Shown piece by piece: positions 43,257 through 64,000 of a stretch of DNA of 64,000 nt. Below the pieces are notes generated by a model, which made no database searches, was not told the origin of the DNA, and worked only from the letters and a program-made list of their open reading frames with translations. A program made the translations under genes and the position numbers. The first letter of the stretch is position 1. Each line of letters opens with the position of its first letter. Source of the DNA: an uncultured Bryobacterales bacterium (lineage in GTDB: Bacteria; Acidobacteriota; Terriglobia; Bryobacterales; UBA6623); contig OX638379.1 of the NCBI GenBank assembly GCA_951813605.1, positions 816,471 through 880,470 of the forward strand, in the 5' to 3' direction.

Positions 43257-45005
43257 TTAACCGTGACCGTTCAGGCGTTCGACATAGACGAAATACGCGC
43301 CTCGCCGTCCCAAGCCGGGCTTCCAGAATGATGCCCGCATCGTCGTCTTGCCCTGTTCCAAGTCGATCTCGATCGCGACGCTGGTAGCACCCTCTGGAAT
43401 TTGCTGCTCGGCCTGTCGATCACCGACCTGGAGGTGCCCGGTCTTGCCGTCAATCGGATAGTCCGCTTCCGGCGGGCGCTCTCGCAGCGTCATCCGGTAC
43501 CGTCCCGGACGAGCGACTTCAATGGCCCAGAAGCCGTCCACCCAGGGGCCTTCCGATGGCGCGTCTTGGATGACGCGCTGGTTGGGAGGGCCTCCCGTAT
43601 ACCAGTCAAAGCTGGTTAGGCGAACGGGATTCGCGTCCGCCGCGCCGACCGGGATCTCCAAGTACTCGTCGAATCTTTGCGTGACGTCGCTCCACCAGCG
43701 CTCGTACTCTCTGCGAAGCCGTGACACGATCTCTGGATGCTGCGAGGCGACGTCGTTCTGCTGCCCGGGGTCAGCCTTGATGTCGTACAGTTCCGCCCCG
43801 CTAACGAGCCGCCAGCGATTCGTGAGTACCGAGGAATGGTAGAACGGCCTCGGAGACTCCATTTGGTATTCGCCGTCTCGCAGGACCTGCTGGTGCTGAA
43901 TGAAGTGCGTTCTACCTTCAGGGAAAGCACCCTGGCCGGTCAGGACAGGCACCAAGCTCGTGCCATCGAACTCGATTGGCGGACTTGACACGCCGGTCAA
44001 ATCGATCAGCGTCGGCACCACGTCAATGTGGGCCGCGAGGCTGCCGACGTCGCGTCCGCCATCGATACCCCCGGCCGGCCAGCGGACGAAGAATGGAACG
44101 CGGTGCCCGCCATCGTAGTTGGAGCCCTTGCCAGAGCGCATGCCGGCGTTGTGGCCGTTGCGCCATCCCGCCGACGAACCGTTATCGGTCATGAAAATGA
44201 GGATCGTGTTGTCTTCCAAGCCCAGTTCGCTTAGCTTGGCCCGGAGCCGTGCGAAGTTGTCGTCAATGTTCTCGATCATTCCGTAAAACGACGCTCGCGG
44301 CTCTTCGACTCCCATCGCGACGTACGGCTGACTGTATTTCTCGTGCACCCAGTACGGCGCGTGCGGCGCGTTCGTGGGGAGGAAGAGAAAGAACGGCCGG
44401 TCCGCGTTCTCCTCAATGAACCGCATGCCTTCATCGAAGAACACGTCCGTGCAGTAACCTTGGAATTCCTCAGGCACGTTATTGCGGTAGTAGGTGTCGT
44501 CGAAATAGTCGTTGCCCCACCAGTCCGCGGCTTGAGTCACGCCGCCGCTCCAGCAGGCGACCGTTTCGTCGAATCCCCGCTCGTTCGGACGGTACGGCCA
44601 ATTGTCTCCGAGGTGCCACTTGCCGAATAGGCCCGTCCGGTACCCGCCGGCGGAGAGCATGTTCGCCACGGTGATCTCGTCATGCCTGAGGATCGACCTG
44701 CCCGCATAGGCCGCTGTCACCCCGGTGCGATATGCATACCTGCCCGTCAACAGAGCCGCCCGCGTCGGCGCACAGAGTGGATCAACGTGGAAGTCCGTGA
44801 ATCTAACGCTCTCGCCATGGAACTTATCGAGATTGGGCGTGCGCAGCGCCGTATTCCCGTGGCATGCTAGATCGCCGTACCCTTGGTCGTCGGTGATCAC
44901 CAGGACTACGTTCGGAGACCTGCTAAGCGACCCTCCGCAGGCCGCGGCCGCGATGGTCGCCGAAGCACCGAGGAAAGAACGCCTGCTGAGACCTTGCTCC
45001 GCCAT
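43257..45005 (-). CDS. Sulfatase, Tat-type lipoprotein leader, C-terminal beta domain
   Basis: This 582-residue sulfatase starts at 45005, where the ATG precedes SRRSFLGASATIAAAACGGS, a twin-arginine leader ending in a lipobox-like AAAC. The frame is open back to 45053 without a leader advantage. Active-site blocks: VLVITDDQGYGDLACHGN, formylglycine motif C78-A-P-T-R82, GLFGKWHLGDNWP, FLPTNAPHAPYW and MTDNGSSAGW. Residues about 450-582 form a beta module (FWAIEVARPGRYRMTLRERP) homologous to that of the sulfatase at 16468, so the two are paralogues. It acts outside the cytoplasm on a sulfated glycan. Confidence 0.9.
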   Translation of the reverse strand: MAEQGLSRRSFLGASATIAAAACGGSLSRSPNVVLVITDDQGYGDLACHGNTALRTPNLDKFHGESVRFTDFHVDPLCAPTRAALLTGRYAYRTGVTAAYAGRSILRHDEITVANMLSAGGYRTGLFGKWHLGDNWPYRPNERGFDETVACWSGGVTQAADWWGNDYFDDTYYRNNVPEEFQGYCTDVFFDEGMRFIEENADRPFFLFLPTNAPHAPYWVHEKYSQPYVAMGVEEPRASFYGMIENIDDNFARLRAKLSELGLEDNTILIFMTDNGSSAGWRNGHNAGMRSGKGSNYDGGHRVPFFVRWPAGGIDGGRDVGSLAAHIDVVPTLIDLTGVSSPPIEFDGTSLVPVLTGQGAFPEGRTHFIQHQQVLRDGEYQMESPRPFYHSSVLTNRWRLVSGAELYDIKADPGQQNDVASQHPEIVSRLRREYERWWSDVTQRFDEYLEIPVGAADANPVRLTSFDWYTGGPPNQRVIQDAPSEGPWVDGFWAIEVARPGRYRMTLRERPPEADYPIDGKTGHLQVGDRQAEQQIPEGATSVAIEIDLEQGKTTMRASFWKPGLGRRGAYFVYVERLNGHG

Positions 45006-45533
45006 GCCTTCAAACTCTCGACAGGCGCCCGAACTCGCTGATCCTTGAAGCACGGGGGAATTCTATCGCGCCGGGCTGTCTTGGCGTCGATGCAGTTCGC
45101 TTTGAGATCGCAGTTGTTCTCACGTGTTCGTGTTTCCGTGGGCCAAAGCCCTGTAGTTGGGCAACGGGCCCCGGCAATTGTCGGGGGGAAGTTGCCTCGC
45201 GACCTAGCGCTATGTGCGGCAAGAGCCATGTCGGGAACGCTCGATCTGCATGAATTCAATTCTTGTCGCGTCGGACCGCTCCGCGCGGACGGGGCCTTGC
45301 GACAACAGCCTTGAGCGCCTCGACACCCAGCAGGGCTTACTCTGTCTCCTGCAACGCAATTCGTGTTCGGGCTCGCATCGTCGGGCGGTGAATTCTCATG
45401 CACGGAGTTCGCAGAAAAAGAGTTTGAGGCGGTACAGCAATGCAGCAATCGCAATCTTGCCGGAAAGAAGGATTTGCTATGCTGCAACCATTGCATCGAG
45501 CCGTCTAGTGCTGTCTGCGATGAGTTCCATTCG
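45006..45533. other. Divergent 528-nt intergenic region
   Basis: This lies between the sulfatase (minus) and the Gly-rich TPR gene (plus). The TPR frame is open from 45363 but without a leader until the ATG at 45534. No other gene is supported. Confidence 0.35.
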
Positions 45534-47143: not shown

Positions 47144-48913
47144 TCAGTTGGGCAAGTGTCGGTCGAACCATTCGACGGTAGCCTTCACGTAGTCAGGGGA
47201 ATCAGGGGACTTGCCGGGGAACGTCGAGCCGTGGCCGCCGCCAGGGATTATCAGGACCTCCACCGCAACGCCCGTTTCCAGCATTCGGTGCGCAAGGAGT
47301 TCCGCATGTTGGATCGGCACCACGGCGTCCGTGTCGCCGTGAATGATCAGCGTTGGCGGGTCGTCATGGGATACGTAGTGAATGGGCGACGCGTCGCGGT
47401 AGGCGATGTACTGAGGCGATGTCTTGGGATCCCTCGCCATGAGCCGCATGCCAAATAGCGATGCGAACGTGCCGGAACCGTACGTGCCGTTATGCAGGAT
47501 CAGGTCCGTTGGGGGCGCCCACGGCACGATCGTTTGCAGTTTGGCGCTTTCCCGGTTGACCGGGTCGGGGTCGTGCGGAGTGCCCGGGGAAGGTTTCAGT
47601 CCGAGCATCAGTGTCAGATGGCCGCCCGAGGAGCCGCCCACCCCTCCGATCCTCTCAGGATCTATTCCCCATCGCGAGGCATGGTGTCGGATGAACCGCA
47701 CGGCCCGCTCAACATCTTCGATTTGCGCAGGGTACTTGTTGAGTGGGGCTGTTCGGTGGTTCACGGCGAACACCGTATAGCCGGCCTCCACCAGAGGCAG
47801 CCCGAAGACTTCCAATTGCCGGCTGGCCTTTTGCTGGGGTGCGCTAGCCGCCAGTGGCGAATGCCAGCCACTGCCGGTGATGTGCAGAATTCCATATCCA
47901 TTGGGGCGCTCGGGCCTATAGACGTCCAAAAGCAGAGCCCCGCCAGAAACCATGCCGAATGTGACATCTCGCTCGATGCGCTCGGCTTTGCTGCTCTCCG
48001 CTGGCGGGGGTTTCTCCGCTGGCGCCCCGCCGGAAAGATGTTCCTTGAAGAAACCCACGATCGCTCCCAGATAGTCGGGTGGATCCTTGGCTCCGGGGAA
48101 CGAAGCCCCGTGTCCTCCGCCTTGAATTGTCACTAGTGCGGCCTCGATGCCGTCCCCTTCTAGCCGGGACAGAAACTCCTGGGATCGAGCATGAGGCACC
48201 CGGTCGTCGGCCGTTCCGTGCATGAGAAGAAAGGGAGGGTCATCGGGCGTCACATGCGCTGCCGGTGACGCATCCCGATAGATCCGGTATGCGGTCGAGG
48301 ATGGCGGGTCACGCTGACCAAGCCGCATGCCGAGCAGCGATGACACGGACGCACTGGAGAAGCGACCTTCGAATCGCGTCAGGTCCGTCGGGGCCGCTCG
48401 GGCGAACACGGCCTGCAGCTTCGCGCTCTCGCGCTCGACAGGGTCCGCGTTCCGGTCGTCGCCGTCGCCATCAAGGACCCCCAGCATGCTGATCAGGTGC
48501 CCCCCCGAAGACCCCCCGACGCCGCCGATTCGGTCGGCGTGGATCCCCAAGCGGGCGGCGTGGCGGCGCACGAATCGAACCGCCCTTTGCGCGTCCTCAA
48601 CGGGTGCCGGATACGAGTACCGCGGAGCCGCGCGATGGTTGATCACAAATACCGTGAAGCCTGCGCCGGTCAGTGGCGGAACGTAGAGCTTCGCGAATCC
48701 GGATTCTTTGAGGGGAGTAGCGTCGTACGTCAGCGGCGCATGCCACCCGCTGCCGGGGATGAACACGATGCCGAACCCATTTGACCGCTCGGGGTAATGC
48801 ACGTCCATCAACATCGCGAGACCGCCCCGCATCGCGTAGATGACGTCCTTGTCTACGCGTGCTTGTAAAGCGGCAGAGCACAGCGCCAAGAGGAGGAAAA
48901 AGCGGAGGAACAT
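47144..48913 (-). CDS. Tandem-repeat secreted alpha/beta hydrolase (BD-FAE-like)
   Basis: This 589-residue protein has two homologous alpha/beta-hydrolase units of about 280 residues in one chain. The start at 48913 precedes a leader (MFLRFFLLLALCSAALQA). Unit 1 (about 20-295): FIPGSGWHAPL, VINHRAAPRYSYPAPVEDA, GGVGGSSGGHL with Ser136, MHGTADDRVP (Asp), GGGHGASFPGA (His). Unit 2 (about 305-589): HITGSGWHSPL, AVNHRTAPLNKYPAQIEDV, GGVGGSSGGHL with Ser429, IHGDTDAVVP, GGGHGSTFPGK. Both triads are intact. The units resemble bifunctional feruloyl/acetyl xylan esterase (BD-FAE) type proteins. Short Pro-rich linker AEKPPPAESSK. Confidence 0.9.
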   Translation of the reverse strand: MFLRFFLLLALCSAALQARVDKDVIYAMRGGLAMLMDVHYPERSNGFGIVFIPGSGWHAPLTYDATPLKESGFAKLYVPPLTGAGFTVFVINHRAAPRYSYPAPVEDAQRAVRFVRRHAARLGIHADRIGGVGGSSGGHLISMLGVLDGDGDDRNADPVERESAKLQAVFARAAPTDLTRFEGRFSSASVSSLLGMRLGQRDPPSSTAYRIYRDASPAAHVTPDDPPFLLMHGTADDRVPHARSQEFLSRLEGDGIEAALVTIQGGGHGASFPGAKDPPDYLGAIVGFFKEHLSGGAPAEKPPPAESSKAERIERDVTFGMVSGGALLLDVYRPERPNGYGILHITGSGWHSPLAASAPQQKASRQLEVFGLPLVEAGYTVFAVNHRTAPLNKYPAQIEDVERAVRFIRHHASRWGIDPERIGGVGGSSGGHLTLMLGLKPSPGTPHDPDPVNRESAKLQTIVPWAPPTDLILHNGTYGSGTFASLFGMRLMARDPKTSPQYIAYRDASPIHYVSHDDPPTLIIHGDTDAVVPIQHAELLAHRMLETGVAVEVLIIPGGGHGSTFPGKSPDSPDYVKATVEWFDRHLPN

Positions 48914-49331
48914 ATCGCGAGAGAGTGTAGCGCACGCCAATGCCCGACCGCTCTCGACCTCGATGGATTCCGGATTGCCTGAGGGGCGACTGCCCGGAAG
49001 CGTCTGCAATCTGGCGGGGCGGCACGGGGGAAGCGCGACGAATTCCTTTCTCCGCTGGCGCCGCTTTGGACGTTCCCCCCACTTTGACCGTGTTTGTGGG
49101 ACATCGGATCGCCCCGCGTTCTCACCCTCCCAGTGTCGAGATAGGAGATTGTGAATCTCGCCTCCAGTGGTCTGTACCGCTAGGCGAGCACTTCTCGGTC
49201 ACCGCGTCTGGTCGTCTTTGACGCTAGCCGCCGTGAACGTTGATTCATTAGGGGGTACCCTGTGCGTATTCGGTACCGTCGCGCTAGGAGCGGAAGGATC
49301 CGCGCCAAGCCTTGGGGCGCGTGTCGGAATC
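48914..49331. other. Divergent intergenic region
   Basis: This lies between the tandem hydrolase (minus) and the sulfatase (plus). The sulfatase frame is open back to a GTG at 49167, but the intervening sequence lacks a signal peptide pattern, so its coding status is uncertain. Confidence 0.35.
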
Positions 49332-50750
49332 ATGCCAACACCGGCTGCCAGTGCTATCGCTTTCGCAGCGAATCGACCAATCGACTCACGGCCAAACATC
49401 GTTGTAGTCGTGCTGGACGACGCCCGGTTCGACGACTTCGGCTTTAGTGGCCACCCGTTTGTCCGCACCCCGAACTTCGATTGCATTGCTACAGAGGGCA
49501 TGCAGTTTTCCAACGCATTTGCCTCAGTCCCGCTCTGCTCGCCGAATCGGGCGTGCATCCTAACCGGCTTGTACGCCCATGCCCACGGGATCATCGACAA
49601 CACCGACCGCAGCGAGCGATCCCACCAACTTGTGACGTTCCCACTGCTGCTCAATCGCTGCGGCTACCAGACAGCGTTCATCGGGAAATGGCACATGGGC
49701 CTCGACGACACCCGCCGACCGGGCTTCGACGAATGGCTTTGCATGCGCGGTCAAGGCGACTATTTCGATCCCGAGGTCGACGACAACGGTGGGCGGCGCA
49801 AGCTTCGCGGATACGCCTCCGAAATATTCTCCACCAGAGCGGCTGACTTCATCCGTCGCCAGCGTGACCGGCCCTTCTTGGCCTACCTGTCGCACAAGGC
49901 TGTCCATCCGAATCTGTTCCAAGACGCGGACGGCAGCATCAAGTCGTTACCGGAGGATGGCGGGTTCACGCCGCCCGAGAGGCTTGCGCACATGTACGCG
50001 GACTGTGCGGTTCCGCGTCGCCCGAATGCGGCTTCTTTCGGGGAGGGCAAGCCGGCCCTGCAGAGACCGATCGAGGGTGTGCCGCCCTTGGGATCCGGCA
50101 CCGGCACGCCCGATCATGTGATTCGCAACCGGCTGCGCATCCTAACGGCCGCCGACGAGGCGTTTGGCAGAGTTCTCGAGGCGCTTGACGAGACCGGTCA
50201 GGCCGACAACACCGTTGTTGTCCTGACGAGCGATCACGGGTATTTCTACGGCGAGCATGGCTTGAACGAGGAACGACGTCTCGCCTACGAGGAGAGCATC
50301 CGGGTTCCCCTCGCAATTCGCTGGCCAGCGCGGATTGAGGCTGGAAGCGAATCGGAAGCTTTCGCGCTCAGCGTGGACTTGGCCCCCACCATCCTCGAGT
50401 TGGCGGGCGTGAGGGCGCCCATTGACACGCACGGTCGGTCGCTGGTGCCTCTGCTCGGCGGGGCGTTCCCTCGGGATTGGCGACGTTCAGTCTTGATCGA
50501 ATGCTTCTCCGATACCGTCTGGCCTCGGATGGTGGCGATGGGCTATCAGGCAGTCCGGACGGGTCGATGGAAACACATCCGGTATACCGATCTTGAGGGG
50601 ATGGACGAACTCTACGATTTGGAAGCTGATCCCTACGAGATGCACAACCTGCGGGCAAGTCGCGGCGTCGCTGCAAGAAGAGCTGAACTCGACGCCGAAC
50701 TGAATCGCCTGCTGAGAGAAACGGACGCCCAGTACCCCCCATCGATGTAG
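49332..50750 (+). CDS. Sulfatase (formylglycine type)
   Basis: This is a sulfatase of about 472 residues. I chose the ATG at 49332 because sulfatases usually have only 10-30 residues before the first strand, here PNIVVVVLDDARFDD. An alternative GTG at 49167 would add 55 residues. Formylglycine motif C69-S-P-N-R73 (Asn in place of the usual Ser/Thr/Ala), then GKWHMG, AYLSHKAVHPN, VVVLTSDHGYFYGEHGLNEER and ELYDLEADPYEMHNL. No convincing leader is visible from this start. The gene is convergent with the DUF1501 gene at 50797. It is not closely similar to the other three sulfatases here, so a separate subfamily is likely. Confidence 0.86.
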   Translation: MPTPAASAIAFAANRPIDSRPNIVVVVLDDARFDDFGFSGHPFVRTPNFDCIATEGMQFSNAFASVPLCSPNRACILTGLYAHAHGIIDNTDRSERSHQLVTFPLLLNRCGYQTAFIGKWHMGLDDTRRPGFDEWLCMRGQGDYFDPEVDDNGGRRKLRGYASEIFSTRAADFIRRQRDRPFLAYLSHKAVHPNLFQDADGSIKSLPEDGGFTPPERLAHMYADCAVPRRPNAASFGEGKPALQRPIEGVPPLGSGTGTPDHVIRNRLRILTAADEAFGRVLEALDETGQADNTVVVLTSDHGYFYGEHGLNEERRLAYEESIRVPLAIRWPARIEAGSESEAFALSVDLAPTILELAGVRAPIDTHGRSLVPLLGGAFPRDWRRSVLIECFSDTVWPRMVAMGYQAVRTGRWKHIRYTDLEGMDELYDLEADPYEMHNLRASRGVAARRAELDAELNRLLRETDAQYPPSM

Positions 50751-50796: not shown

Positions 50797-52263
50797 TCAG
50801 GCCAGGATCGGCCGGATGACCTCCCCTGCGACGTCGGTTAGCCGATAGCGCCTGCCGTTGTAGTTGTACGTCAGCCGCTCGTGGTCCATTCCCAGCAGGT
50901 GCAGGATCGTGGCGTGGAAGTCATGGACCGATACCGGATCACTGCCGACCTTGAAACCAATGTCGTCGGACTCGCCGTACGACACCCCGCCCTTGATCCC
51001 GCCGCCGACCATCCAAGCGGTCAAGCAGTGCGGATTATGGTCCCGACCCGGCTTTGATGTGCCGACCTGGGCCACGGGCAGCCGTCCGAACTCTCCGCCC
51101 CAGATCACCAGTGTGTCGTCCAACAGTCCGCTCTGCTCCAGATCGGTGAGCAGTGCAGCGAAAGGCTGGTCGGTCTCCCCAGCGAATTGGGAGTGGTTGC
51201 CCACGATGTCGATGTGTCCGTCCCAGGCTCGCTGGTTTTCCATTCCGCCCGAGTAAATCTGGACGAAACGCACGCCTCGCTCTAAGAGCCTTCGGGCAGT
51301 GATGCACTGGCGGGCGACGTGACCGCACCTTTCGCTGTGAAGGCCGTAAAGTTCCTTGATGTGAGCCGGCTCGCTCTCGACGTCCAAGGCCTCCGGCGCG
51401 GCCGCCTGCATGCGGTAAGCGAGTTCGAAGCTCTCGATGCGGGCAGCCAGTTCCTGCTGTTGCGGATTCCCTTCTAGGTCGCGACGGTTGAGTTGCGCGA
51501 TCAGATCCAGCTGGGCGCGCTGTCGGGGGCCCGCCAATGCAGCCGGGGGCTTCAAGTTCCGGATCGGCTCGCCTTTAGGACGCAGCCAGGTTCCTTGGTA
51601 AGCGCCAGGCAGAAAGCCAGCGGACCAGTTCGCCGCGCTGCCCTTCGGCAACCCGCGATCCTTGGGATCCGACATGACGACGAATCCCGGCAGGTCGTTA
51701 CTCTCGCTTCCGAGACCGTAGGTTATCCATGACCCGAGGCAGGGGAAACCCATGCGCGGCTGCCCGCAGTTGACCATGAACAGGGCAGGCGAGTGATTGT
51801 TGGAATCCGAGTGCGCGGAGTGGATGAACGCGATCTTGTCGACGTGCTCTCCCAGATGGGGAAAGATCTCGGAAACCATCTTTCCGCTCTGCCCGCGCGG
51901 CGAGAACTTGAACGGCGACTGCATCAGAGCGCCGACCTCTTGCGAGAAGAATCCGGTGAACTTGTCGAATCCCTCGAGATCCTGCCCGTGGCGCTTGGCG
52001 AGTTCCGGCTTGTAGTCCCAGGTGTCGATGTGGCTCGGACCGCCGTTGATGAAGAGCCATATGACGCGCTTGGCTTTGGGGGCAAAATGGGGAGTCCGGG
52101 GGGCCATGGGATTCAGCGCGCGATCGGCAACGGAAGCCGCTTCCAGCAGGCCCTCGTCGGCAAGCAATCCGGCGAGTCCGATGACTCCGAATCCCATGCC
52201 GCAGCGCCCCAGCATCGAGCGACGCGAGAGGATTGGTTTGCGTTGGGTTTCTCTTGATGTCAT
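50797..52263 (-). CDS. DUF1501 protein, Tat-exported
   Basis: This 488-residue protein is the second DUF1501 protein in the window. The start at 52263 lies 5 nt after the PSD1 stop; a twin-arginine leader follows (SRRSMLGRCGMGFGVIGLAGLL). Family blocks: VIWLFINGGPSHIDTWDYKP, IHSAHSDSNNHSPALFMVN, GSWITYGLGSESNDLPGFVV, CITARRLLERGVRFVQIYSGG, WDGHIDIVGNHSQFA, LVIWGGEFGRLPVAQ, GRDHNPHCLTAWMVGGGIKG and DFHATILHLLGMDHERLTY. It is longer in the middle than the paralogue at 11022 and closer to the family consensus. Co-translation with the PSD1 protein suggests a functional pair; no reaction is established. Confidence 0.92.
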   Translation of the reverse strand: MTSRETQRKPILSRRSMLGRCGMGFGVIGLAGLLADEGLLEAASVADRALNPMAPRTPHFAPKAKRVIWLFINGGPSHIDTWDYKPELAKRHGQDLEGFDKFTGFFSQEVGALMQSPFKFSPRGQSGKMVSEIFPHLGEHVDKIAFIHSAHSDSNNHSPALFMVNCGQPRMGFPCLGSWITYGLGSESNDLPGFVVMSDPKDRGLPKGSAANWSAGFLPGAYQGTWLRPKGEPIRNLKPPAALAGPRQRAQLDLIAQLNRRDLEGNPQQQELAARIESFELAYRMQAAAPEALDVESEPAHIKELYGLHSERCGHVARQCITARRLLERGVRFVQIYSGGMENQRAWDGHIDIVGNHSQFAGETDQPFAALLTDLEQSGLLDDTLVIWGGEFGRLPVAQVGTSKPGRDHNPHCLTAWMVGGGIKGGVSYGESDDIGFKVGSDPVSVHDFHATILHLLGMDHERLTYNYNGRRYRLTDVAGEVIRPILA

Positions 52264-52268
52264 GGTGT

Positions 52269-55200
52269 TCACCGGATGTACAGGAATTCGTTGAGGCTGA
52301 GCAAGGATTGGCAATAGTCGACCATCGCGAGTCGGTCGGAGTCCGGCATTCCGTCCGCTGCGTACAGATTACGCTGGCTCTCGATAAACGCCAGCCCGGC
52401 AGAGATCTCAGCAGGGTTCGCCGGTCGCGACAAGGCCGCGCGATACGCCATGTCAACCGCCGCTTCCACGTCCTGCCCTTCCAGCCGTTGCGCGAATCCC
52501 TCTGCGTAGCGCCGCGCTTGCGGGCTGTTGAGGAATTGCAGCGCCTGGGGCGCGACGGTCGTTGACGGCCGCATTCCGATGCCCACCAAGTGCTCGGGCC
52601 AGTCGAAGAGCATCATCGACGGAATCAGCTCGCTGCGCTTCACGAAGAAATAGACGCTTCGCCGGCCACTTCCTTCGTTGAGCCTTCCCGGACCGTACAT
52701 CGAGGGATCGAGCATCCCTGAAACGCTCAGCAGCGAATCGCGAATCGCCTCGGCTTCAAGCCGCCTAGGCGTCCATCGCCAGCGAAGTCGGTTGGAGCGG
52801 TCCGCGTCGGACTTGGCATCATCGCTGGAGGAACTCGCCATGTATACGCTGCTCTTCATGATCATGCGGTGCAGCCGTTTCAGGCGCCAACCGCTCGAAA
52901 TCAAATCACGGGCTAGCCAGTCTAGGAGTTCGGGATGAGTGGGACGCGCGCCCATCGCTCCGAAATTGCTGGGCGTGGCGACGATTCCAGTGCCGAAATG
53001 GTAATGCCAGAGCCGGTTTACGATGACCCGTGCAAGCAACGCTCCCGCTCCCTGATCCGGATCCGTGATCCATCGGGCTAGGGATGTCCGGTGGAATCTG
53101 CTGCGGTCCCAGTCAGGCGGGGGCTTCGCCCGCCATCGCTGGTGGGCTGTGCCGCCTCGGATGAGCACCGGCAGGACGCCGGGTTGGGCTGGCGCCGCCT
53201 TCTGGCTGGGATCCCCTCGGCGAAGCAAGTGCGTTTGCTCGAAGAAATGCGGATAGCCCTTGCCTTCGGCGTTGTGCCGAGCCGGCTTGAAGCCTTCGGC
53301 TGACGCCTGGATTTTCGTCGCCGCGGGGATTGGCACCTGCGATTCGTGGTCGCGGATTGCCGCGGTCGCCGCGACCCACTCGGGGTCGTGCCTTGCGTAA
53401 TGGCGGAGCAGCGCCGCTTTGTGGTCAGCCGATAGAGCCTCGACCCCCTCCGTGCCCAGGACAGCAAGTCCGTCTGCCAACGGCTGTGGAGCGCCTTCAT
53501 CGATCAGGAACCCTGTCTCCCTTTCGGTGGAAACTGATAGTCTGACGCGGCCGAGGCTGAAATGCGGGTTGAAGCCGAAGCGCATCTTCACTGTCAGCCG
53601 CGTGCCGTCATCGAAGCCAAGAGGCTCTTCGAATTCGAGGATTGCTGCTTGGCTTGATCCGATCGCTCCGGGCCGGATGGTCCACCCGCTCTTGTCGCTG
53701 CCAGTCTGCACCGACGCCATGATCGAGGATGTGTTCTCGTCCACTTGGTCCGTCGCTAGCGCGCGCTGGAACTTGAGCTTCACGGGCTCTGCCGCCTCGT
53801 CGCCAGCTGGCCGCGCTTCCGCGGTCAGCACGCCTAGAAGGAATTGGCCGTCGTGGGACCTTCCCGGGCCATTGAACGGCAGCGACGGATGGGTCAGCGC
53901 CTCGAGCCGCAATGCCCGGACTCCTTTGGTAGCGAGATTCGCGGTGAAGGTGTAGGACTCGAAGTCGACGTTGTCCCCGCTGAAAAGGATCGAACCGTCG
54001 TCCAGAGCATCGGTCACGGCATTGCTTGCCGTGTCGATCCTCGCAATGTCAAGCACTTGCCAGGGCCCTGTCTCAGTGCCCCGAGCTCCCTCTTTCAGCC
54101 AATTGTGGAAGCCATCCTCGAGTTTCGCTTGTTCAATCGCTCGCCGTTCCTCGTACAGCTTCTTGCGCTTGCCGACCCAGAGTGCCTTCTCTCTCCGGTA
54201 TTCCCCCGGGTTCGGATCGTACTCGATCTCAGTGCGGGTCGTGCGCCCGAACACAGCGGCCATGTTGTAGTAATCGCGGGCCGAGATTGGATCGTGCTTG
54301 TGGTCGTGGCAGCGGGCGCAACCCACTGTGAGCCCGAGCATTGCGGTTCCCAACGTGCCAATCATGTCATCGAGTTCGTCGTAACGAGCCGTCTCGAATT
54401 CCGCCTCTGTGATCTGGGTCGGGAATGCTCCGGCCCCAAGAAAACCGGTGGCCATTAGTGCCAATGGATTCTCTGGCTCAAGTTCGTCGCCGGCTATCTG
54501 CAAGCGTACGAATCGGTCGAAGGGCATGTCGCGATTGAACGCCTTAATCAAGAAGTCTCTGTAGTGGTACGCATACGGGCGGTCGAAGTCTTCCTCGAAC
54601 CCGTGGCTCTCGGCGAATCGGGCGATGTCCATCCAATGGCGTGCCCAGCGCTCGCCGTAGTGGGGTGAATCGAGGAGATCGTCGATCAAGCGGTCGTACG
54701 CTCGAGGCTCGGTGTCGCGGACAAATGCCTCGACTTGCTCGGGGCTGGGCGGCAGACCTAGAAGATTCAGCCAAGCCCGTCGGATCAACGTGCGCCGGTC
54801 GGCAAGTGGATTCGGCTGGATGCCGGCCGCCTCCAGTTTCGCGAGGATGTAGCGGTCGACCGGTGTTTGCGCGGAGTCTTCGTCGGTGACTTGGGGTGGA
54901 GCCGCGTCTGCGAGCGGACGAAACGACCAGAATATAGTGTCGGCTTCCGCCTCTGACAGCACCGCCCCTGCGGGGCCGCCGAGCAATGGCTTGTCGTAAG
55001 GCGCTCCCAGTGCAATCCATCGAGCGACCCTGTCGATCTTCGATTCGGCAAGCTTGTCTTGTCCGAAAGGCATGAAAGGCTCTCGATCGCGTCGCAAGAC
55101 CGCGACGAGCCCACTGGACTCCGCCGTCTCGCCGATTTTGCCGCTGGCGAGCAATGAGCCGCGCGAGGAGAGGTCGAGGCCACCCATCGTCTGCCCGCCT

Positions 55201-55514
55201 CCGTGGCAGGCAAGGCAAGTCTCCACAAACAGCGGTCGGACTTCCTGCCGGAACAATGCGAGGCCTTCGGCCATGCGCGCCGCGTGCTGCTTGTCGACCT
55301 GCTGTGCAGAAGCGGGCATTGCCAGAATCCAGCAGACAGCCGCTAGTGCGCTGGCGCGAGCCCAGCCTCCTATGCCAGGCCCTAAGGCGGACCGTTTCTC
55401 AGCGGCGGCGTTTACATCCCGCGTTTGCCGGGCGCGCATCTCCACACGGCGGATCCATGCGGTCCGGGCGAACCGGCCTTGGCTGACATCCGAAACTGTG
55501 ATGGCATGACGCAT
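52269..55514 (-). CDS. PSD1-type protein: PSCyt1 + DUF1549 + DUF1553, with insert
   Basis: This is an exported protein of about 1,081 residues. The ATG at 55514 has GGAG 6 nt upstream (CTCC at 55521-55524); a later in-frame ATG is at 55439. The leader core is ARASALAAVCWILAMPASAQ. PSCyt1 contains CLACH (100-104); DUF1549 has DRYILAKLEAAGIQPNP, LIRRAWLNLLGLPPS and RWARHWMDIARFAES. The conserved GCARCHDHKHDPI gives a second CxxCH. A beta-rich insert (about 470-680) precedes DUF1553 (VIVNRLWHYHFGTGIV, PSNFGAMGARPTHPELLDWL). The DUF1501 gene follows after 5 nt. The gene diverges from the 1,598-residue diheme protein across 110 nt. Confidence 0.92.
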   Translation of the reverse strand: MRHAITVSDVSQGRFARTAWIRRVEMRARQTRDVNAAAEKRSALGPGIGGWARASALAAVCWILAMPASAQQVDKQHAARMAEGLALFRQEVRPLFVETCLACHGGGQTMGGLDLSSRGSLLASGKIGETAESSGLVAVLRRDREPFMPFGQDKLAESKIDRVARWIALGAPYDKPLLGGPAGAVLSEAEADTIFWSFRPLADAAPPQVTDEDSAQTPVDRYILAKLEAAGIQPNPLADRRTLIRRAWLNLLGLPPSPEQVEAFVRDTEPRAYDRLIDDLLDSPHYGERWARHWMDIARFAESHGFEEDFDRPYAYHYRDFLIKAFNRDMPFDRFVRLQIAGDELEPENPLALMATGFLGAGAFPTQITEAEFETARYDELDDMIGTLGTAMLGLTVGCARCHDHKHDPISARDYYNMAAVFGRTTRTEIEYDPNPGEYRREKALWVGKRKKLYEERRAIEQAKLEDGFHNWLKEGARGTETGPWQVLDIARIDTASNAVTDALDDGSILFSGDNVDFESYTFTANLATKGVRALRLEALTHPSLPFNGPGRSHDGQFLLGVLTAEARPAGDEAAEPVKLKFQRALATDQVDENTSSIMASVQTGSDKSGWTIRPGAIGSSQAAILEFEEPLGFDDGTRLTVKMRFGFNPHFSLGRVRLSVSTERETGFLIDEGAPQPLADGLAVLGTEGVEALSADHKAALLRHYARHDPEWVAATAAIRDHESQVPIPAATKIQASAEGFKPARHNAEGKGYPHFFEQTHLLRRGDPSQKAAPAQPGVLPVLIRGGTAHQRWRAKPPPDWDRSRFHRTSLARWITDPDQGAGALLARVIVNRLWHYHFGTGIVATPSNFGAMGARPTHPELLDWLARDLISSGWRLKRLHRMIMKSSVYMASSSSDDAKSDADRSNRLRWRWTPRRLEAEAIRDSLLSVSGMLDPSMYGPGRLNEGSGRRSVYFFVKRSELIPSMMLFDWPEHLVGIGMRPSTTVAPQALQFLNSPQARRYAEGFAQRLEGQDVEAAVDMAYRAALSRPANPAEISAGLAFIESQRNLYAADGMPDSDRLAMVDYCQSLLSLNEFLYIR

Positions 55515-55624
55515 CGGCGGCTCCAGTATACGAATCCGCAGCGCGACCCATCGGCGTCGGATGGGAATCAATCCGTGATCTTGCCGAGAAAGGTTCGATC
55601 GGGTACGATGGGGCGCGCGAGCAC
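55515..55624. promoter_or_regulatory. Short divergent promoter region between PSD1 and the giant diheme protein
   Basis: Only 110 nt separate the two start codons, so the two transcripts probably share regulation. On the minus strand GTATACT lies about 12 nt before the PSD1 ATG and could be a -10 element of a nearly leaderless transcript, but I see no matching -35. Confidence 0.4.
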
Positions 55625-58600
55625 GTGTCACGCCTAGGCTTCCTCCCCAACCGCGCGCGGACTTTCGCGGGCCGGTTGCTGCCTTCCCTCTCGCTATTGT
55701 TCTCGGTAACTATGGCGACGGCCTCCGTTCGGGAGTCTGCGGAGACGATTTCCTTCAATACGGAATGGAGCCGTACATGGGCCTTCGACGACGGTGATGC
55801 CTTCGAGTTGAGCGTTCGCATCGAGCGGCCGTCCACCTTACCGCCCAATGCCCGCATCGAAGTTTCCTGGGACGGCCCGGACCTGCGGGAACTTGCCTAC
55901 AAGGGCGACCGCGGTGACGCGGGCGTCGCGGCGACCTCCGATTGGGCCAAGATCCTCCACGCTTTGGACCCTGATTTGCACTTGGTCTACCGGGCACCGC
56001 GTTCCGGGGCTTACACGTTGCGACTCAGATCCGTGCAGCATGGTGCGCAGCCTCTTGGCGAGATTCCACACGACACCGGTCTCGCGCCGCTGGCAACCCC
56101 GCTTCCCAATGAGACTCCGGCCGTCCGGGGCGTCGATTTGGGAATCTCCTTGCGTCCCATCGATTCGCTCTCCAGTCGCGATTTGGTTCTGGAGGCGGAA
56201 CCGAATAACGCGCCGGAGCAGGCAACCAACCTCATCTTCCCTGCTTCCGACGGCGAGCAAGTCTTGTATGTCATCGGCGGCTCGGACGAAATCGAGTACT
56301 ACAACAACACCAAGCTCGGCAGCAACCCGGACGATTGGTACCGGATCGAATACAGGGGCAGCGAGCCGAAGTTCCTGAGCGCGAACCTGCAGATCGTCGA
56401 GCCAGTGGTCAGCGCTCGGATCCGTTTTTACAAGCAGGGCGAGCCGACTGCAGAGGAACTGCGAGAGCGTGCGGTGCCGAACAGCAACGACTTCTCGAAC
56501 TTCAACCCCATTCCCTACGTCCATCCGCCCGCGGCGGTCATCCCCGGTCCGGTTCCGGTCTACACGTACGAGGACGGTCGTGCCATCAACGAACGAGACC
56601 ATCAGCAAGATCGCACGTTCCGCACCTTCGTGACGAGGAAGCTCGAACCCGGACACACGTACTACTTGCGGGTCGAAGCGAACCAGCCTCACTACGAGAT
56701 GCAGGTGCGGCTTTTCGATCCCGCTCCGTACGACGATCCGGTTGAGGCGGTGCGACAGGCGGTCTACTACCACCTTGCGGAGATCGACGCGTGGCTGATT
56801 CACCGCCCGCGAAACATCGCGCCGCACCGCAGGATCCGGGACGCGACCGCGCTCTTCGGAGAGAACTGCATGAGCTGTCACACCCAGAGCGGCGTATGGG
56901 GCGTCGCGGACGCTTTCCGCAACGGCTACGGCCCCAACGGGGTCGAGCAGAACTACCGGCGGCTAGTCAACACCATGTACGAGTCCCTCCGGCTGACTAA
57001 CAAGCTCAAGGACGCGGCGGTCAACACGAGCGTCGCTCCGAATGACCTCGGGGACGGTCCGGCGGGCACGCGCGTGGCAGGCCGCAATATCGTGCTTCAC
57101 GAGCGCACCGCCCGGCCCAAGAAGCTTCATGCCCAGTGGCAGCGGCGCACGGCAAATTACGTGCTTCAAACGGCCGATCCGAAAGGCATCAATGCAGCCG
57201 GGCGCGGGTCGAATTTCGGCCCTAATGTAGTCTTCAAGTTCTCAGCGGAGGTCTTGGAACGGGCTTGGCGCGACACCGGGGAGCCACGCTATTTCTTCGG
57301 TCTCGAGGAAAAGGGCCGCAGGATTCTCGCCACTGGGGACAACATCCGAGTCACCGACGACTACGGGCACCGAATCGAGTTTGTTCATCGAATCTGGCCC
57401 GCGGACTACGTGGAGCAAGTTCGGAAGCTGACAAATTCCCCCAGGCGCGTGGCGCAGGCGCGCCGCTTGGATGACGATTTGCGGAAGCGCGCGACGAAAG
57501 ACCTGCAGCGCTTGCTTGCGCTGCAACGGGACGATGGCGGCTGGGGCTTCAATCCTGGCAAGGCCGGAGAAAACGGCAACTGGGTCAGGCCCGACGACCA
57601 CAGCTACCCGGCCGCCACCTCCGTGGCCCTCATTGCGCTCGAAGCCGCCGGTCGGCGTGCCGGCGACCCTGTTGTGGCGAAAGGCGTTCGATGGATGCTG
57701 CGAAACCAATACCCCTACGGCCTTTGGAATGCCGCTGCGGCCACTGGCTTCGTGACCAGCGCCTATGCGATCCGGGCGCTCAGCCGATTGCACCCCGCTT
57801 CGCCCGCGCCAGCGGTTCCCGATACTTCCTTCGATCCGAACGGCTCGTTCCTAGAGTCGCTCGGAAAGGTGCGCGCGGCGCAAGCGACCGGCGAGTCGCG
57901 CTATGTCGATTTGCTCTTGGCAGCGGTTCGGAGCCCGCGTCCCCAGGTCCGCCTCTACGGCCTGCTGGGCTTGGGCGGGGCATTGGCCCACGAGGCCGCG
58001 CCGACGCTCGTCGAACACTTGGGCGATCCAGTGAAAAGCTGCCGCGAGGCCGCGTTCTGGTCACTGCGTCAGCTTCTGCTCGACGGAGGCGCTTGGGATC
58101 TCATTGCCGCCGCGTATCGCGACGGCAACGACTTCGCTCGTCAGTCCGTTATGCAGGCTTTGGTAACGCGGGCACACTTGCCTGGCTCCGGGGTGGATGT
58201 CGACCTTTCGGAACTGGCGGGCGTGCTAACTGCCGGCATGGTCGATCCTCATCCCGCAGTGCGGGCCTTCGCGTTCAAAGCGGCGTGGCACTGGTGGGTT
58301 TGGAACCCGCCGATGAGAGAGCCCATCAACCGGGCATGGATCGACGCCTTGCTGCGCGAGGAGAGCGAGGCCCAGGTCGATATGGCGTTGCGATACTCGA
58401 CGATCTCCCTTTTCGTCGTCAACGGGCAGGTGAACAATATCACGGGCGGCAAGTATCTGGATCAGCAATACCCGGAGCTTGCCACCCTGTACAGCGAACT
58501 GGACGCATGGAGAGAGTCTGCGCCGGAGGAGCAGCGGCTGCTATTGGACCGCCGGCTGACCGCAATGGCCGCATCGCATTACATGGAGCGCGCGAACCAG

Positions 58601-60421
58601 CAGAGCCCCGGCCAATTCGCGTACAGCACGCCCGGTGCTACCGAACTCTTCGGCAAGGCCGTGCTCGCGGTTTACCGAGATGGTTCCGACGGGACGATTC
58701 CCTGGAAATCCATCGCGTTGGAAGGCGCGCGCAACATCACTCACAGGCCTCTGCAGGACACGATTCTCGAACTGCTGCACACAACGGATCCGGCAGTGGT
58801 TGCGATTGCGGCTCGCGCCCTGTCCAACCCCGGGGAATTGTCGCTGCCAGCCCGCCCGTACGCATTGGAGCCTTTGCTGCGAGTGCTCCGCTTGTATGCC
58901 CGTGACGGCCGGGAGAAGGACGCGGACGCGTTGGCGAACTTCCTTGCCCGCGTGAATTGGAACTTCGAAGGCGTCGGCGAGGACGAGGAGGCCGCGTTCT
59001 ACCGGCTGCTGCTCGGTCTTGGCGAGAGCGATCGCGCTTCTGCCGAAGGAGGTTCGGCGACGCTGCTTGGGAAGCCCATGCCGTCCGGGACCGTCTCCTT
59101 GGACGAGGATTCCTATTCCCCCCTGATCGCGCGGATATTGGGCGAGAATCGGACGCTGCATCGAAGGGAGGCGTTCCGGCACCTCTCAAGCGACCCGAGG
59201 CTATGGCTTGACTCGACAGAGTGGATGCTTGCCTTTCGCCAAGGGGCGGAAAGCTTGGACGAGGCGGTCGAGGGCGCGACCGAAGCGGAAGACTTGGAGG
59301 TGGCCGAACTCACGTTCGGGCGAACCACCGAACAAATGATCCCCGGAGGCGTCGCGAGCAACAACAGCGTTCTGATTTGGGAAGAGGGCAAGGTCGGCGC
59401 GCATATATCGTTCGCTCTCGACTCGCCCGCGCCGGGCCAATACGAATTGCTCGGCGCCTTCCTGTACGGGGCGTCGCATGGGATTGTAGAGGCCACGCTC
59501 GGCGGCGTGCCCGTCCTAGAGCAGACCGACTTCTACCGGCCTGACGTGAGCTCGACCGGGCCCATGCCACTTGGTGTATTCGACCTAAGCGAAGGGCGCA
59601 GCCTGTTCACAGTGAGAATGCTTGGAACCAACGCCGACGCCGAGCCCGAGTTCAAGTTCGGGCTGGACTACCTCAAGCTCTCTCCGCACGAGGGGGCCCA
59701 GTCCCTATTCACGAAAGACGCCCGTGGGGTCGACATCATCGATCCCGTCGCGTTGGCCAAGACCGAGGCTGTCGGAATGTTCGTCCGCTGGTTCTCGCCC
59801 GACGCCGCGAGAGATACTCGAGACCTCGCGTCGAGGCTAGCGGGGTTGCCTTCGCTGCGCCGGAATCCCGAGGTGCGGAAGGCCATCGCGGCCTACGTGG
59901 AGAGCGAGCCGGTCGCGAGCATTAGGACGCGCTTGAAGAACTTGCTCGCCAACGACGACGAGCGATTTGGCGCCGACCTCCGCCAACTCATCGAGGACGC
60001 CCGGAAATCCGGGGCTCCTCTTCATCGACCACTGGAACCGACGGACGCGTTCGTCGCCGACATTCTTCACTTCCGAGACTATGTCTTCGCGGAAATGAAC
60101 AGGCTCAGCGACCGGGACGACAAAGCTTGCATTTCCTGCCACGGAGTGCCCGGGCGGGTTCCGACCCTGTACTTGCATCCACCGGACGGTGCCGGCCACA
60201 TCGGTGCCGCGGAGGTCCTGGCGAACTATCGCAAGCTCCAAAACCGCGTGGATGTATCGGAACCAGAACTGAGCCTTCTCCTCCGGAAGCCCCTTAATGT
60301 CCAATCGGGCCAAGAGGAAGGGCACCAAGGCGGCCTTCGCTTCGAGACGGACGACCAAGGCTTCCAAATACTGCGCGATTGGGTGTTCAAGCAGGCCGAA
60401 CTGCAGTCTGGCTCGAACTGA
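55625..60421 (+). CDS. Giant diheme protein: beta domain, CxxCH, cyclase-like toroid, HEAT, beta-sandwich, CxxCH
   Basis: This 1,598-residue exported protein starts with GTG and has a leader (AGRLLPSLSLLFSVTMATASV). Residues about 40-400 are beta-rich, with PPC-like features (GAYTLRLRS, PGHTYYLRVEANQPHYEM). The first heme motif CMSCH is at 415-419. At about 620-720 a repeated alpha segment resembles prenyltransferase/squalene-cyclase toroids (LLALQRDDGGWGFNPGK, SYPAATSVALIALEAAGRR). About 770-900 are HEAT-like repeats (APTLVEHLGDPVKSCREAAF). At about 1225-1356 lies a beta-sandwich ending FGLDYLKLSP, like carbohydrate-binding modules. The C-terminus holds CISCH (1502-1506) in a cytochrome c-like region. 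I do not recognise the whole architecture. It faces the PSD1-DUF1501 operon. Confidence 0.85.
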   Translation: MSRLGFLPNRARTFAGRLLPSLSLLFSVTMATASVRESAETISFNTEWSRTWAFDDGDAFELSVRIERPSTLPPNARIEVSWDGPDLRELAYKGDRGDAGVAATSDWAKILHALDPDLHLVYRAPRSGAYTLRLRSVQHGAQPLGEIPHDTGLAPLATPLPNETPAVRGVDLGISLRPIDSLSSRDLVLEAEPNNAPEQATNLIFPASDGEQVLYVIGGSDEIEYYNNTKLGSNPDDWYRIEYRGSEPKFLSANLQIVEPVVSARIRFYKQGEPTAEELRERAVPNSNDFSNFNPIPYVHPPAAVIPGPVPVYTYEDGRAINERDHQQDRTFRTFVTRKLEPGHTYYLRVEANQPHYEMQVRLFDPAPYDDPVEAVRQAVYYHLAEIDAWLIHRPRNIAPHRRIRDATALFGENCMSCHTQSGVWGVADAFRNGYGPNGVEQNYRRLVNTMYESLRLTNKLKDAAVNTSVAPNDLGDGPAGTRVAGRNIVLHERTARPKKLHAQWQRRTANYVLQTADPKGINAAGRGSNFGPNVVFKFSAEVLERAWRDTGEPRYFFGLEEKGRRILATGDNIRVTDDYGHRIEFVHRIWPADYVEQVRKLTNSPRRVAQARRLDDDLRKRATKDLQRLLALQRDDGGWGFNPGKAGENGNWVRPDDHSYPAATSVALIALEAAGRRAGDPVVAKGVRWMLRNQYPYGLWNAAAATGFVTSAYAIRALSRLHPASPAPAVPDTSFDPNGSFLESLGKVRAAQATGESRYVDLLLAAVRSPRPQVRLYGLLGLGGALAHEAAPTLVEHLGDPVKSCREAAFWSLRQLLLDGGAWDLIAAAYRDGNDFARQSVMQALVTRAHLPGSGVDVDLSELAGVLTAGMVDPHPAVRAFAFKAAWHWWVWNPPMREPINRAWIDALLREESEAQVDMALRYSTISLFVVNGQVNNITGGKYLDQQYPELATLYSELDAWRESAPEEQRLLLDRRLTAMAASHYMERANQQSPGQFAYSTPGATELFGKAVLAVYRDGSDGTIPWKSIALEGARNITHRPLQDTILELLHTTDPAVVAIAARALSNPGELSLPARPYALEPLLRVLRLYARDGREKDADALANFLARVNWNFEGVGEDEEAAFYRLLLGLGESDRASAEGGSATLLGKPMPSGTVSLDEDSYSPLIARILGENRTLHRREAFRHLSSDPRLWLDSTEWMLAFRQGAESLDEAVEGATEAEDLEVAELTFGRTTEQMIPGGVASNNSVLIWEEGKVGAHISFALDSPAPGQYELLGAFLYGASHGIVEATLGGVPVLEQTDFYRPDVSSTGPMPLGVFDLSEGRSLFTVRMLGTNADAEPEFKFGLDYLKLSPHEGAQSLFTKDARGVDIIDPVALAKTEAVGMFVRWFSPDAARDTRDLASRLAGLPSLRRNPEVRKAIAAYVESEPVASIRTRLKNLLANDDERFGADLRQLIEDARKSGAPLHRPLEPTDAFVADILHFRDYVFAEMNRLSDRDDKACISCHGVPGRVPTLYLHPPDGAGHIGAAEVLANYRKLQNRVDVSEPELSLLLRKPLNVQSGQEEGHQGGLRFETDDQGFQILRDWVFKQAELQSGSN

Positions 60422-61963: not shown

Positions 61964-64000
61964 TCAGAAGCGGTACTTCAGCGCGTACTGCCAAACGCGT
62001 GGTCCGCCGCCGCGGCCGACATTGCCGACCGCGCTGAGCAGGCCCGCTGTCGGTGCGTTGAACGGCTGCATCTCGCGCTGGATGATGAAATTCGTGCGAT
62101 TAGCGATGTTGAACGCCTCGATGCGAACTTGCAGGCGATGCCCCTCCGCCAGCACGAAATTCTTCGAAAGTGCTGTGTTGACCGAGACCAGCCCGGGACC
62201 GTCTAGGATATTGCGGCCGGAGTTGCCAAACGCGAACGGGGTGAAGCCTCCCTGGGGGCCGCAATCGAACGTGTCGGTCTCCAGTTCCACGCAAGTTGGG
62301 ACCGCTTCGAATGCGTTCAAGTCGTACCACGGGAAATCCACGCCCTTTTTCCCGGGCGCGCTGTCCGCGGCAACCTTGCCATCTGCGATCCGGTTGGGCC
62401 GCAGCGATTCACCGAGATTCACATCGGGATTGGCGGTTGTAACCGTCAGAGGCGAGCCGGAGTATGCCGCCGCTGTGCCGGACAACTGCCACCCACCGAG
62501 CACCGCGTCGAGGACGCCGCCCCAATTCTTCCCCCAGCGCTTGCGCTTTCCGAAGGGCAGCTGATAATTGCCCACCATGGTGGCGACGTGCCGACGGTCC
62601 CAATCCGAGCGCCCGCGGTCGAGGCGCAGGTTCCGCGAATCCAGCGCCTGGGCAAACCCGCCTTCCGAACGCCCGTTAGCTTGCGAAGCATCGTCGATTG
62701 TTTTCGAGAACGAATAGTTCACGCGCCAGAACAAGCCCCCGCGACTGCGCCTCCGCCACGAGACGTTGAAGGCGTTGTAGATCGAATTGGAGCCGGTGTC
62801 GAATATCTGGATCGCGTTCCAATCCGGGATTGGTCGGGTGAATCCCTCTCCTGCGACGAACGAGTCGGCCGTGCGGTACGGCTGGTTGAAGTCGTATCGC
62901 CGGATTAGGTGCGTACCCTTTGAACCGCGATAGTCCATTTCGATTGTGGTATTTTCGAAAATCGCGCGTTCGATCGTGAAGTTCCACGACTGCAAGTATC
63001 CGGTGCTCGGATTCAGGTCGTACCCGCGAACGGACGTCGTTCCGGCAAGCCTTTCGCGAGTGGTAGGGAACGGATTCTGCAGCGAGACCTCGTTCGGCCT
63101 TGCGTTGACTCCCGGAAAGTTTTGCACCACGGCGAACGGGAACTGGTTCGAGAGATTGTTCCTGAGATTGTTCAGGATGTCGCCGGCCAGGAAGACGCCG
63201 TAGCCGCCGCGCAAAACCGTGCTGTCGGTGACGCGGTAGGCAAATCCAATGCGGGGCGAGAAGTTGTTCCAATCGGTTCCAATCACCGACCTCGGGCGGC
63301 CAGCGGCCTGAGCGGTCGTGATCACGCTCGCCAGCCCTGTGTCGGCGAGCAGTTCCTGGTAGTTGCTCGGGACATTCTCGTCGCTGCCCAGAATCAACTT
63401 CCTCGAGTGCGTGTCGTAAACGCCAAGCCGGTCGTACTTGTCTGCCGGCGAGCGGTTGACCCCCCAGCGCAATCCAAGGTTGACAGTCAGGTTGCGAGTT
63501 GCCTTCCAGTCGTCATTAATGAATGCACCCATCGCATGCTGCCGCCAGTAGTTGCGATTGAACCCAAGTTGCCGGTTGACATTGTGCAGCCAGCCGAGCT
63601 GCAAGTCGGCGATTGGAGAGCCGGTTCGGCGACCGCGGAAACGGTACGTTCCGCGCTGGTTGTTGAAGAACGGCTGGTTGAATTGCACGTAATTGCTGTT
63701 GAATCCGAACTTCACTGTGTGGGTGCGGACGAGCCAGGAGAACTTGGTTCCCCACTGCCAGTCCGTCACGTGAAACTGGACGGGCTGGTTGGCTCCCGTG
63801 CCGACCTGCGCGCTGTTGTCAACCAGGAATCGCGGCCAGTCGAGCAACTCGGGCAGGTTTGCCGACTCGCTTTCGGGAATCAGGTTAGGCAGGCCAAGCT
63901 GTTCGGCAATGTTCTCGCCGGGATAGTAACCCCGGTTGTACGCCGAGTTGCGGCTGAATCCTCCGCGCACCTCCATGATCAGCCTGGGCGAGAACATGTG
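61964..64000 (-). CDS. TonB-dependent receptor, 5' end outside window
   Basis: The visible 678 residues are the C-terminal barrel of an Oar-like receptor, and the frame is open past the right edge (the Met at 63997 is internal). Blocks: MEVRGGFSRNSAYNRGYYPG, GAFINDDWKATRNLTVNLGL then RWGVNRSP, NNFSPRIGFAYRVTDSTVL, GGYGVFLAGDIL, TTIEMDYRGSKGTHLIRRYDF, GGLFWRVNYSFSKTIDDASQ, GGWQLSGTAAAYSGSPLTV and a final strand WQYALKYRF. The C-terminal Phe is the usual outer-membrane insertion signal. The N-terminal regulatory and plug domains must lie beyond the window. Substrate unknown. Confidence 0.9.
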   Translation of the reverse strand, partial: HMFSPRLIMEVRGGFSRNSAYNRGYYPGENIAEQLGLPNLIPESESANLPELLDWPRFLVDNSAQVGTGANQPVQFHVTDWQWGTKFSWLVRTHTVKFGFNSNYVQFNQPFFNNQRGTYRFRGRRTGSPIADLQLGWLHNVNRQLGFNRNYWRQHAMGAFINDDWKATRNLTVNLGLRWGVNRSPADKYDRLGVYDTHSRKLILGSDENVPSNYQELLADTGLASVITTAQAAGRPRSVIGTDWNNFSPRIGFAYRVTDSTVLRGGYGVFLAGDILNNLRNNLSNQFPFAVVQNFPGVNARPNEVSLQNPFPTTRERLAGTTSVRGYDLNPSTGYLQSWNFTIERAIFENTTIEMDYRGSKGTHLIRRYDFNQPYRTADSFVAGEGFTRPIPDWNAIQIFDTGSNSIYNAFNVSWRRRSRGGLFWRVNYSFSKTIDDASQANGRSEGGFAQALDSRNLRLDRGRSDWDRRHVATMVGNYQLPFGKRKRWGKNWGGVLDAVLGGWQLSGTAAAYSGSPLTVTTANPDVNLGESLRPNRIADGKVAADSAPGKKGVDFPWYDLNAFEAVPTCVELETDTFDCGPQGGFTPFAFGNSGRNILDGPGLVSVNTALSKNFVLAEGHRLQVRIEAFNIANRTNFIIQREMQPFNAPTAGLLSAVGNVGRGGGPRVWQYALKYRF

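Follow-up and report, generated by a model that had tools for sequence, protein, structure and literature searches.

Gene and distribution of the family

What might a single bacterial chain do that carries two c-type heme motifs together with a cyclase-like alpha/alpha toroid, HEAT repeats and a carbohydrate-binding module? The question is raised by a gene at positions 55625..60421 (+ strand) of the window, by which we mean the whole 64,000-nucleotide stretch analysed from an uncultured Bryobacterales bacterium. The gene has a GTG start and encodes 1,598 residues, and its open reading frame contains CxxCH at residues 415 and 1502, as the initial annotation had read it. Searches of the whole protein against Pfam and NCBIfam gave piecemeal matches only and no named family with the same order of parts, in agreement with that annotation. 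The window sits in a 6.19-Mb genome assembled as one contig, whose named relatives are Bryobacterales/Terriglobia MAGs of the Acidobacteriota; several of these are presumably sponge-associated, judging by their isolate names.

The gene has a full-length paralogue in the same genome, 54% identical to the window protein. Among 100 related genomes, 42 gave a match at E<=1e-10, a count that includes piecemeal matches to more distant cousins. Within the window's own taxonomic family a match was found in 16 of the 18 genomes (own genome counted), mostly with two copies each, and in a second Bryobacterales family the homologues are about 1,310-1,350 aa long. The distant cousins (1,010-1,412 aa) have their order of parts in common with the main family, and a profile comparison between the two groups gave E 1e-70 over 725 columns. 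Outside Bryobacterales, a homologue was detected in one of the 247 genomes drawn in a phylum survey, in which two candidates were scored per genome so that the count is a lower bound. This homologue has an open frame of 1,481 residues with both CxxCH motifs present. The diheme form thus occurs in two Bryobacterales families and beyond the order, and all parts except the carbohydrate-binding module are kept in every homologue read.

Heme motifs and export

Heme motif 1 reads CMSCH (residues 415-419; 56867..56881, + strand) and is unchanged in 31/31 homologues; 11/11 cousins keep it in the general form CxxCH. Heme motif 2 reads CISCH (residues 1502-1506; 60128..60142, + strand), and its CxxCH is invariant in all 42 members. 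With the non-Bryobacterales homologue added to the 31 aligned ones, both motifs are kept by all 32 homologues as well as by the 11 distant cousins. Homologues lacking either motif, named in the initial annotation as a ground for refutation, were thus not encountered. The two motifs lie about 1,080 residues apart, in different folds.

The stretch that contains heme motif 1 is nearly wholly conserved, with the invariant columns CMSCHTQS.VWG and then NTS..P.DLGD.PAG.R.AG.N. Such near-total conservation fits an active site better than a passive linker. A sub-threshold cytochrome match was found by Pfam at residues 404-451. As a candidate ligand of heme 1 within the toroid, no residue is invariant across both the main family and the cousins; the invariance of His502 is limited to the main family. 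For heme 2, the natural candidate for a second, axial ligand is the invariant His1567, in a GHxGG-type motif that follows KP (KPLN...GHQGG, residues 1555-1570; 60287..60334, + strand). We infer these iron-binding residues from the alignments.

Residues 1-35 (55625..55729, + strand) look like a cleavable leader, with a hydrophobic LLPSLSLLFSVTMATA followed by S; read by eye, the leader ends in ATA before that S, which bears out the leader that had been proposed. Export of the chain and heme attachment outside the cytoplasm are what these motifs lead us to infer, and cytochrome c assembly proteins are encoded in the genome. Next to the leader lies an N-terminal beta region of putative jelly-roll/PPC-like type (residues 37-365; 55733..56719, + strand). 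Its beta strands, claimed at the outset, are present in an AlphaFold2 (AF2) model, and a weak Foldseek match links it to the ColG collagen-binding tandem (5iku). It had no Pfam match, and a PDB profile search with it gave nothing above noise. K109, H112, D115 and D117 are invariant in the region, His112 in 42/42 members.

A toroid that may hold the first heme

The toroid with heme motif 1 spans residues 385-724 (56777..57796, + strand). Its last repeats match Pfam SQHop_cyclase_C at residues 624-709 (57494..57751, + strand; QRDDGGWGF...NQYPYGLWN...TGF) with 32.4 bits against a cut-off of 26.1, the DGGWGF motif lying inside the match. The family profile also matched squalene-hopene cyclase structures (2sqc) at E 1e-12 over profile positions 611-697. 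Because SQHop_cyclase_C (at E<=0.01) and HEAT_2 are both matched by 31/31 aligned homologues, in which both CxxCH motifs are invariant, the toroid and HEAT matches are not due to chance.

Two overlapping AF2 models were built from shallow alignments (14 rows: the window and related loci) and with heme absent from the prediction. Model 1 covers residues 36-1235 (pLDDT 65, pTM 0.65) and model 2 residues 399-1598 (pLDDT 66, pTM 0.47); confidence is below 50 across most of the heme 1 stretch in both. Model 1 matched 1sqc over window residues 529-724 (Z 11.1, rmsd 2.6, 152 aligned) and, together with the Pfam match, supports the toroid that had been proposed. The best fold match of the toroid came from the low-confidence model 2, which matched 8h1k, an AGE-type (alpha/alpha)6 epimerase, over residues 412-724 (Z 14.2, rmsd 3.7, 252 aligned), although Z scores of 13-14 are possible among helical folds without kinship. 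Whole-model Foldseek lists were dominated by HEAT solenoids and said little on the other parts. In model 2 the heme motif at 415 is placed in the toroid's first helix, a placing that is not secure. Since the 8h1k match spans residues 412-724 and, as independent evidence, a family of one-heme toroids shares this layout, CxxCH 415 is apparently part of the toroid and not of a separate cytochrome in front of it. This would refine the order of parts first proposed, in which CxxCH 415 was listed as an element of its own.

The one-heme toroids form a separate family of about 380 aa, found in 38 of the 151 Terriglobia genomes, with a leader, CxxCH and the same toroid repeats; CxxCH was present in all 30 members read. 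The window's genome encodes one of 402 aa with a leader (G000:C1:3163486-3164691; L070:8487-9695). When this family was compared by profile with the main family, the probability was 98.7% for the whole stretch from heme motif to repeats, and the heme segment alone gave E 2.8e-5 (pairwise, probability 74%). The same CxxCH-toroid order in these small proteins indicates that heme and toroid form a unit. A conserved operon was looked for around the one-heme genes and none was found. At three of their loci (L129, L137 and L141) they lie near an ABC transporter and recurring genes that resemble a peptide-product cluster.

HEAT repeats and a CBM84 module

A HEAT-repeat solenoid follows at residues 727-1112 (57803..58960, + strand). 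Pfam HEAT_2 matched residues 762-846 with 32.8 bits (cut-off 27.7), and an AF2 model matched alphaRep/HEAT structures with Z up to 15, so that the HEAT-like repeats first noted are supported by both profile and fold.

The beta-sandwich that had been likened to a carbohydrate-binding module can now be assigned to the CBM84 type (residues 1220-1353; 59282..59683, + strand). Its profile matched the CBM84 module MiXBM (7ehg) at E 2.1e-9 and xanthan lyase (6f2p) at E 1.6e-7. CBM84 comprises modules of xanthan-degrading enzymes (PMC10881899). The module occurs in no taxonomic family other than that of the window, and in the tree all 17 rows that have it fall on one side of a single branch, in keeping with one origin in that family; in the window's genome it is carried by the two paralogues only. 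Either the window's lineage gained it, or it is ancient and was lost a single time elsewhere. Its confinement to one branch and one family implies that it lies outside the core function.

The C-terminal cytochrome and its kinship

The C-terminal helical segment and PSCyt-type cytochrome occupy residues 1372-1598 (59738..60418, + strand). These residues had no Pfam match at E<=10, the PSCyt1 model (PF07635) included, and a PDB profile search with the cytochrome gave nothing above noise. Within the window's genome, the cytochrome profile matched six further places beyond the two paralogues, five of them in PSD1-holding ORFs (E 1e-9 to 4e-7). Four of these five were read directly and show CxxxCH, then S.L..KP....HGGG. 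The C-terminal cytochrome is thus of the type with which some PSD1 (DUF1553) proteins begin, and the link to PSD1 is one of homology. PSCyt-type proteins are abundant and have no known function, but a connection with carbohydrate use has been made for them, and a role in carbohydrate metabolism has been proposed for PSD1 proteins (PMC5615132).

Genomic neighbourhood

The divergent neighbour of the gene encodes a PSCyt1-PSCyt2-PSD1 protein (52269..55631, - strand; true start probably about 0.19 kb inside the frame), which is paired with a DUF1501 protein (50797..52314, - strand). The adjacency of these two genes is not conserved, and no conserved operon or fixed neighbour was found among the homologues of the main family. 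PSD1 matched above the cut-off at 85 places in the genome, two of which belong to one protein (about 84 PSD1 proteins), and nowhere in 14 control genomes. With so many PSD1 matches the adjacency is unremarkable. The suggestion that homologues lie beside PSD1-DUF1501 pairs was not upheld, and a link by position was rejected.

Other genes in the window include, close to the diheme gene, two sulfatases (43257-45053 and 49167-50750) with a BD-FAE esterase (47144-49009), and a TonB-type outer-membrane beta-barrel protein (OMP_b-brl_4; 61964-64000) that the end of the window truncates. The paralogue has conserved surroundings, in which a P-type ATPase carries a Band_7/SPFH match at residues 696-902 of the same chain (L042:3166-6207). 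Around the cousins, three loci (L060:6665-16357, L061:2262-11307 and L073:2445-12071) share a recurring set of a beta-propeller protein (~1,150 aa), a TPR protein (~775 aa), the cousin itself and a CAAX-type membrane protease (~220 aa).

Possible role of the protein

The reading that we favour, tentatively and with well under even confidence, is that of an exported diheme c-type oxidoreductase with heme 1 at a reaction site in the toroid and heme 2 as electron relay. The chain would be exported and its hemes attached outside the cytoplasm. The toroid would surround heme 1 and provide the site at which an organic substrate, perhaps one that contains sugar, reacts; heme 2 would receive the electrons and hand them to soluble cytochromes. 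The HEAT repeats and beta domains may act as a frame for the parts or as docking sites for partners, and in the window's own family CBM84 may tether the enzyme to an acidic polysaccharide. The substrate is speculative; the PSCyt link and CBM84 give a weak hint of polysaccharides. In favour of an oxidoreductase are the invariant CxxCH pair, the conserved heme 1 stretch, the 8h1k match, the one-heme toroids, the PSD1-type heme 2, CBM84 and the assembly proteins. Against it are the lack of a conserved operon that would indicate a pathway and the mean pLDDT of 65-66, with the placing of heme 1 not secure; a heme-only electron carrier fits the motifs equally well.

The chain could instead be a non-catalytic electron-transfer or binding scaffold, in which the two hemes relay electrons between partners while the toroid, HEAT repeats and CBM merely bind. 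Binding is the typical role of HEAT and PPC-like modules, a catalytic motif was not recognised (the DxDD of cyclases is absent) and the part with the second heme is similar to cytochromes that occur fused to other proteins. Against the scaffold, the toroid and the surroundings of heme 1 are very strongly conserved and one-heme toroids exist as free-standing proteins, both of which suggest that the toroid-heme unit has a function of its own; we regard the scaffold as somewhat unlikely. An accessory partner that accepts electrons from a PSD1-DUF1501 or PSD2-5-DUF1552 system would fit the homology of the C-terminal cytochrome to that of the PSD1 subtype, the adjacent pairs in the window and at cousin locus L063, and the PSD/DUF1552 pair upstream in L051. 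Yet with the PSD1 matches in this genome such neighbours are expected by chance, and the homologues have no fixed neighbour, so that we consider such a partnership improbable.

Two c-heme motifs in one chain predicted to be exported, a polymer-binding module and a weak CCP_MauG (PF03150) match (E 0.29) are also reminiscent of diheme peroxidases or oxygenases of the MauG/CCP/RoxA kind with a polymer as substrate. That match scores 12.2 bits, below the cut-off of 25.6, and the wide spacing of the heme motifs and their different folds argue further against this kind of enzyme, which appears distinctly improbable. The least credible reading, held to be very improbable, is that of a genuine terpenoid or squalene cyclase to which cytochromes were added. 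It is favoured by the above-threshold SQHop_cyclase_C match and the 1sqc fold, but the alignment is partial, TIGR01507 scores 38.9 bits against a cut-off of 431.1 and the NCBIfam cyclase models reach at most 39 bits against cut-offs above 320. D.DD occurs in the toroid of none of the 42 members, on which ground a terpene cyclase function was rejected, and a genuine squalene-hopene cyclase with DTDD is encoded elsewhere in the same genome.

Proteins with the toroid fold are known to cyclise cations, transfer prenyl groups and epimerise sugars. In the collection of papers that we searched, none combined the alpha/alpha toroid fold with covalent heme. A c-type heme built into this toroid might represent a new heme-enzyme scaffold, used alone (~380 aa) or in diheme form (~1,000-1,600 aa) to oxidise large or sugar-linked substrates outside the cytoplasm; we hold this idea to be possible but rather doubtful. 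If heme 1 does lie in the toroid cavity, then the fold also hosts covalent heme chemistry. The spread of the one-heme form across Terriglobia makes these small proteins an easy test of the heme-toroid idea, and the diheme oxidoreductase would give a first handle on PSCyt-type cytochromes.

Comparison with known systems

With squalene-hopene cyclase (PF13243, TIGR01507, PDB 1sqc/2sqc), the window protein shares the last toroid repeats (Q..DGGW, TG, NQ...G.W) and the fold over residues 529-724; it differs in the absent DxDD, the partial alignment, the heme motif and its predicted export. The AGE-type epimerase 8h1k is alike in overall toroid shape, with no sequence family match, so that the resemblance is one of fold alone. 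The one-heme toroids of Terriglobia have the leader, CxxCH and the toroid with SQHop_cyclase_C repeats, but neither HEAT nor CBM and a single heme motif. PSCyt-DUF1549-PSD1 (DUF1553) proteins have a similar cytochrome, with CxxCH or CxxxCH followed by S.L..KP.....HxGG.R, whereas in the window protein this cytochrome stands at the C-terminus of a toroid-HEAT protein without a DUF1549 or DUF1553 domain. The xanthan-binding CBM84 modules match the window module in profile, but the known ones are joined to xanthan lyase or xanthanase, while here the module, a putative glycan binder, is joined to a cytochrome.
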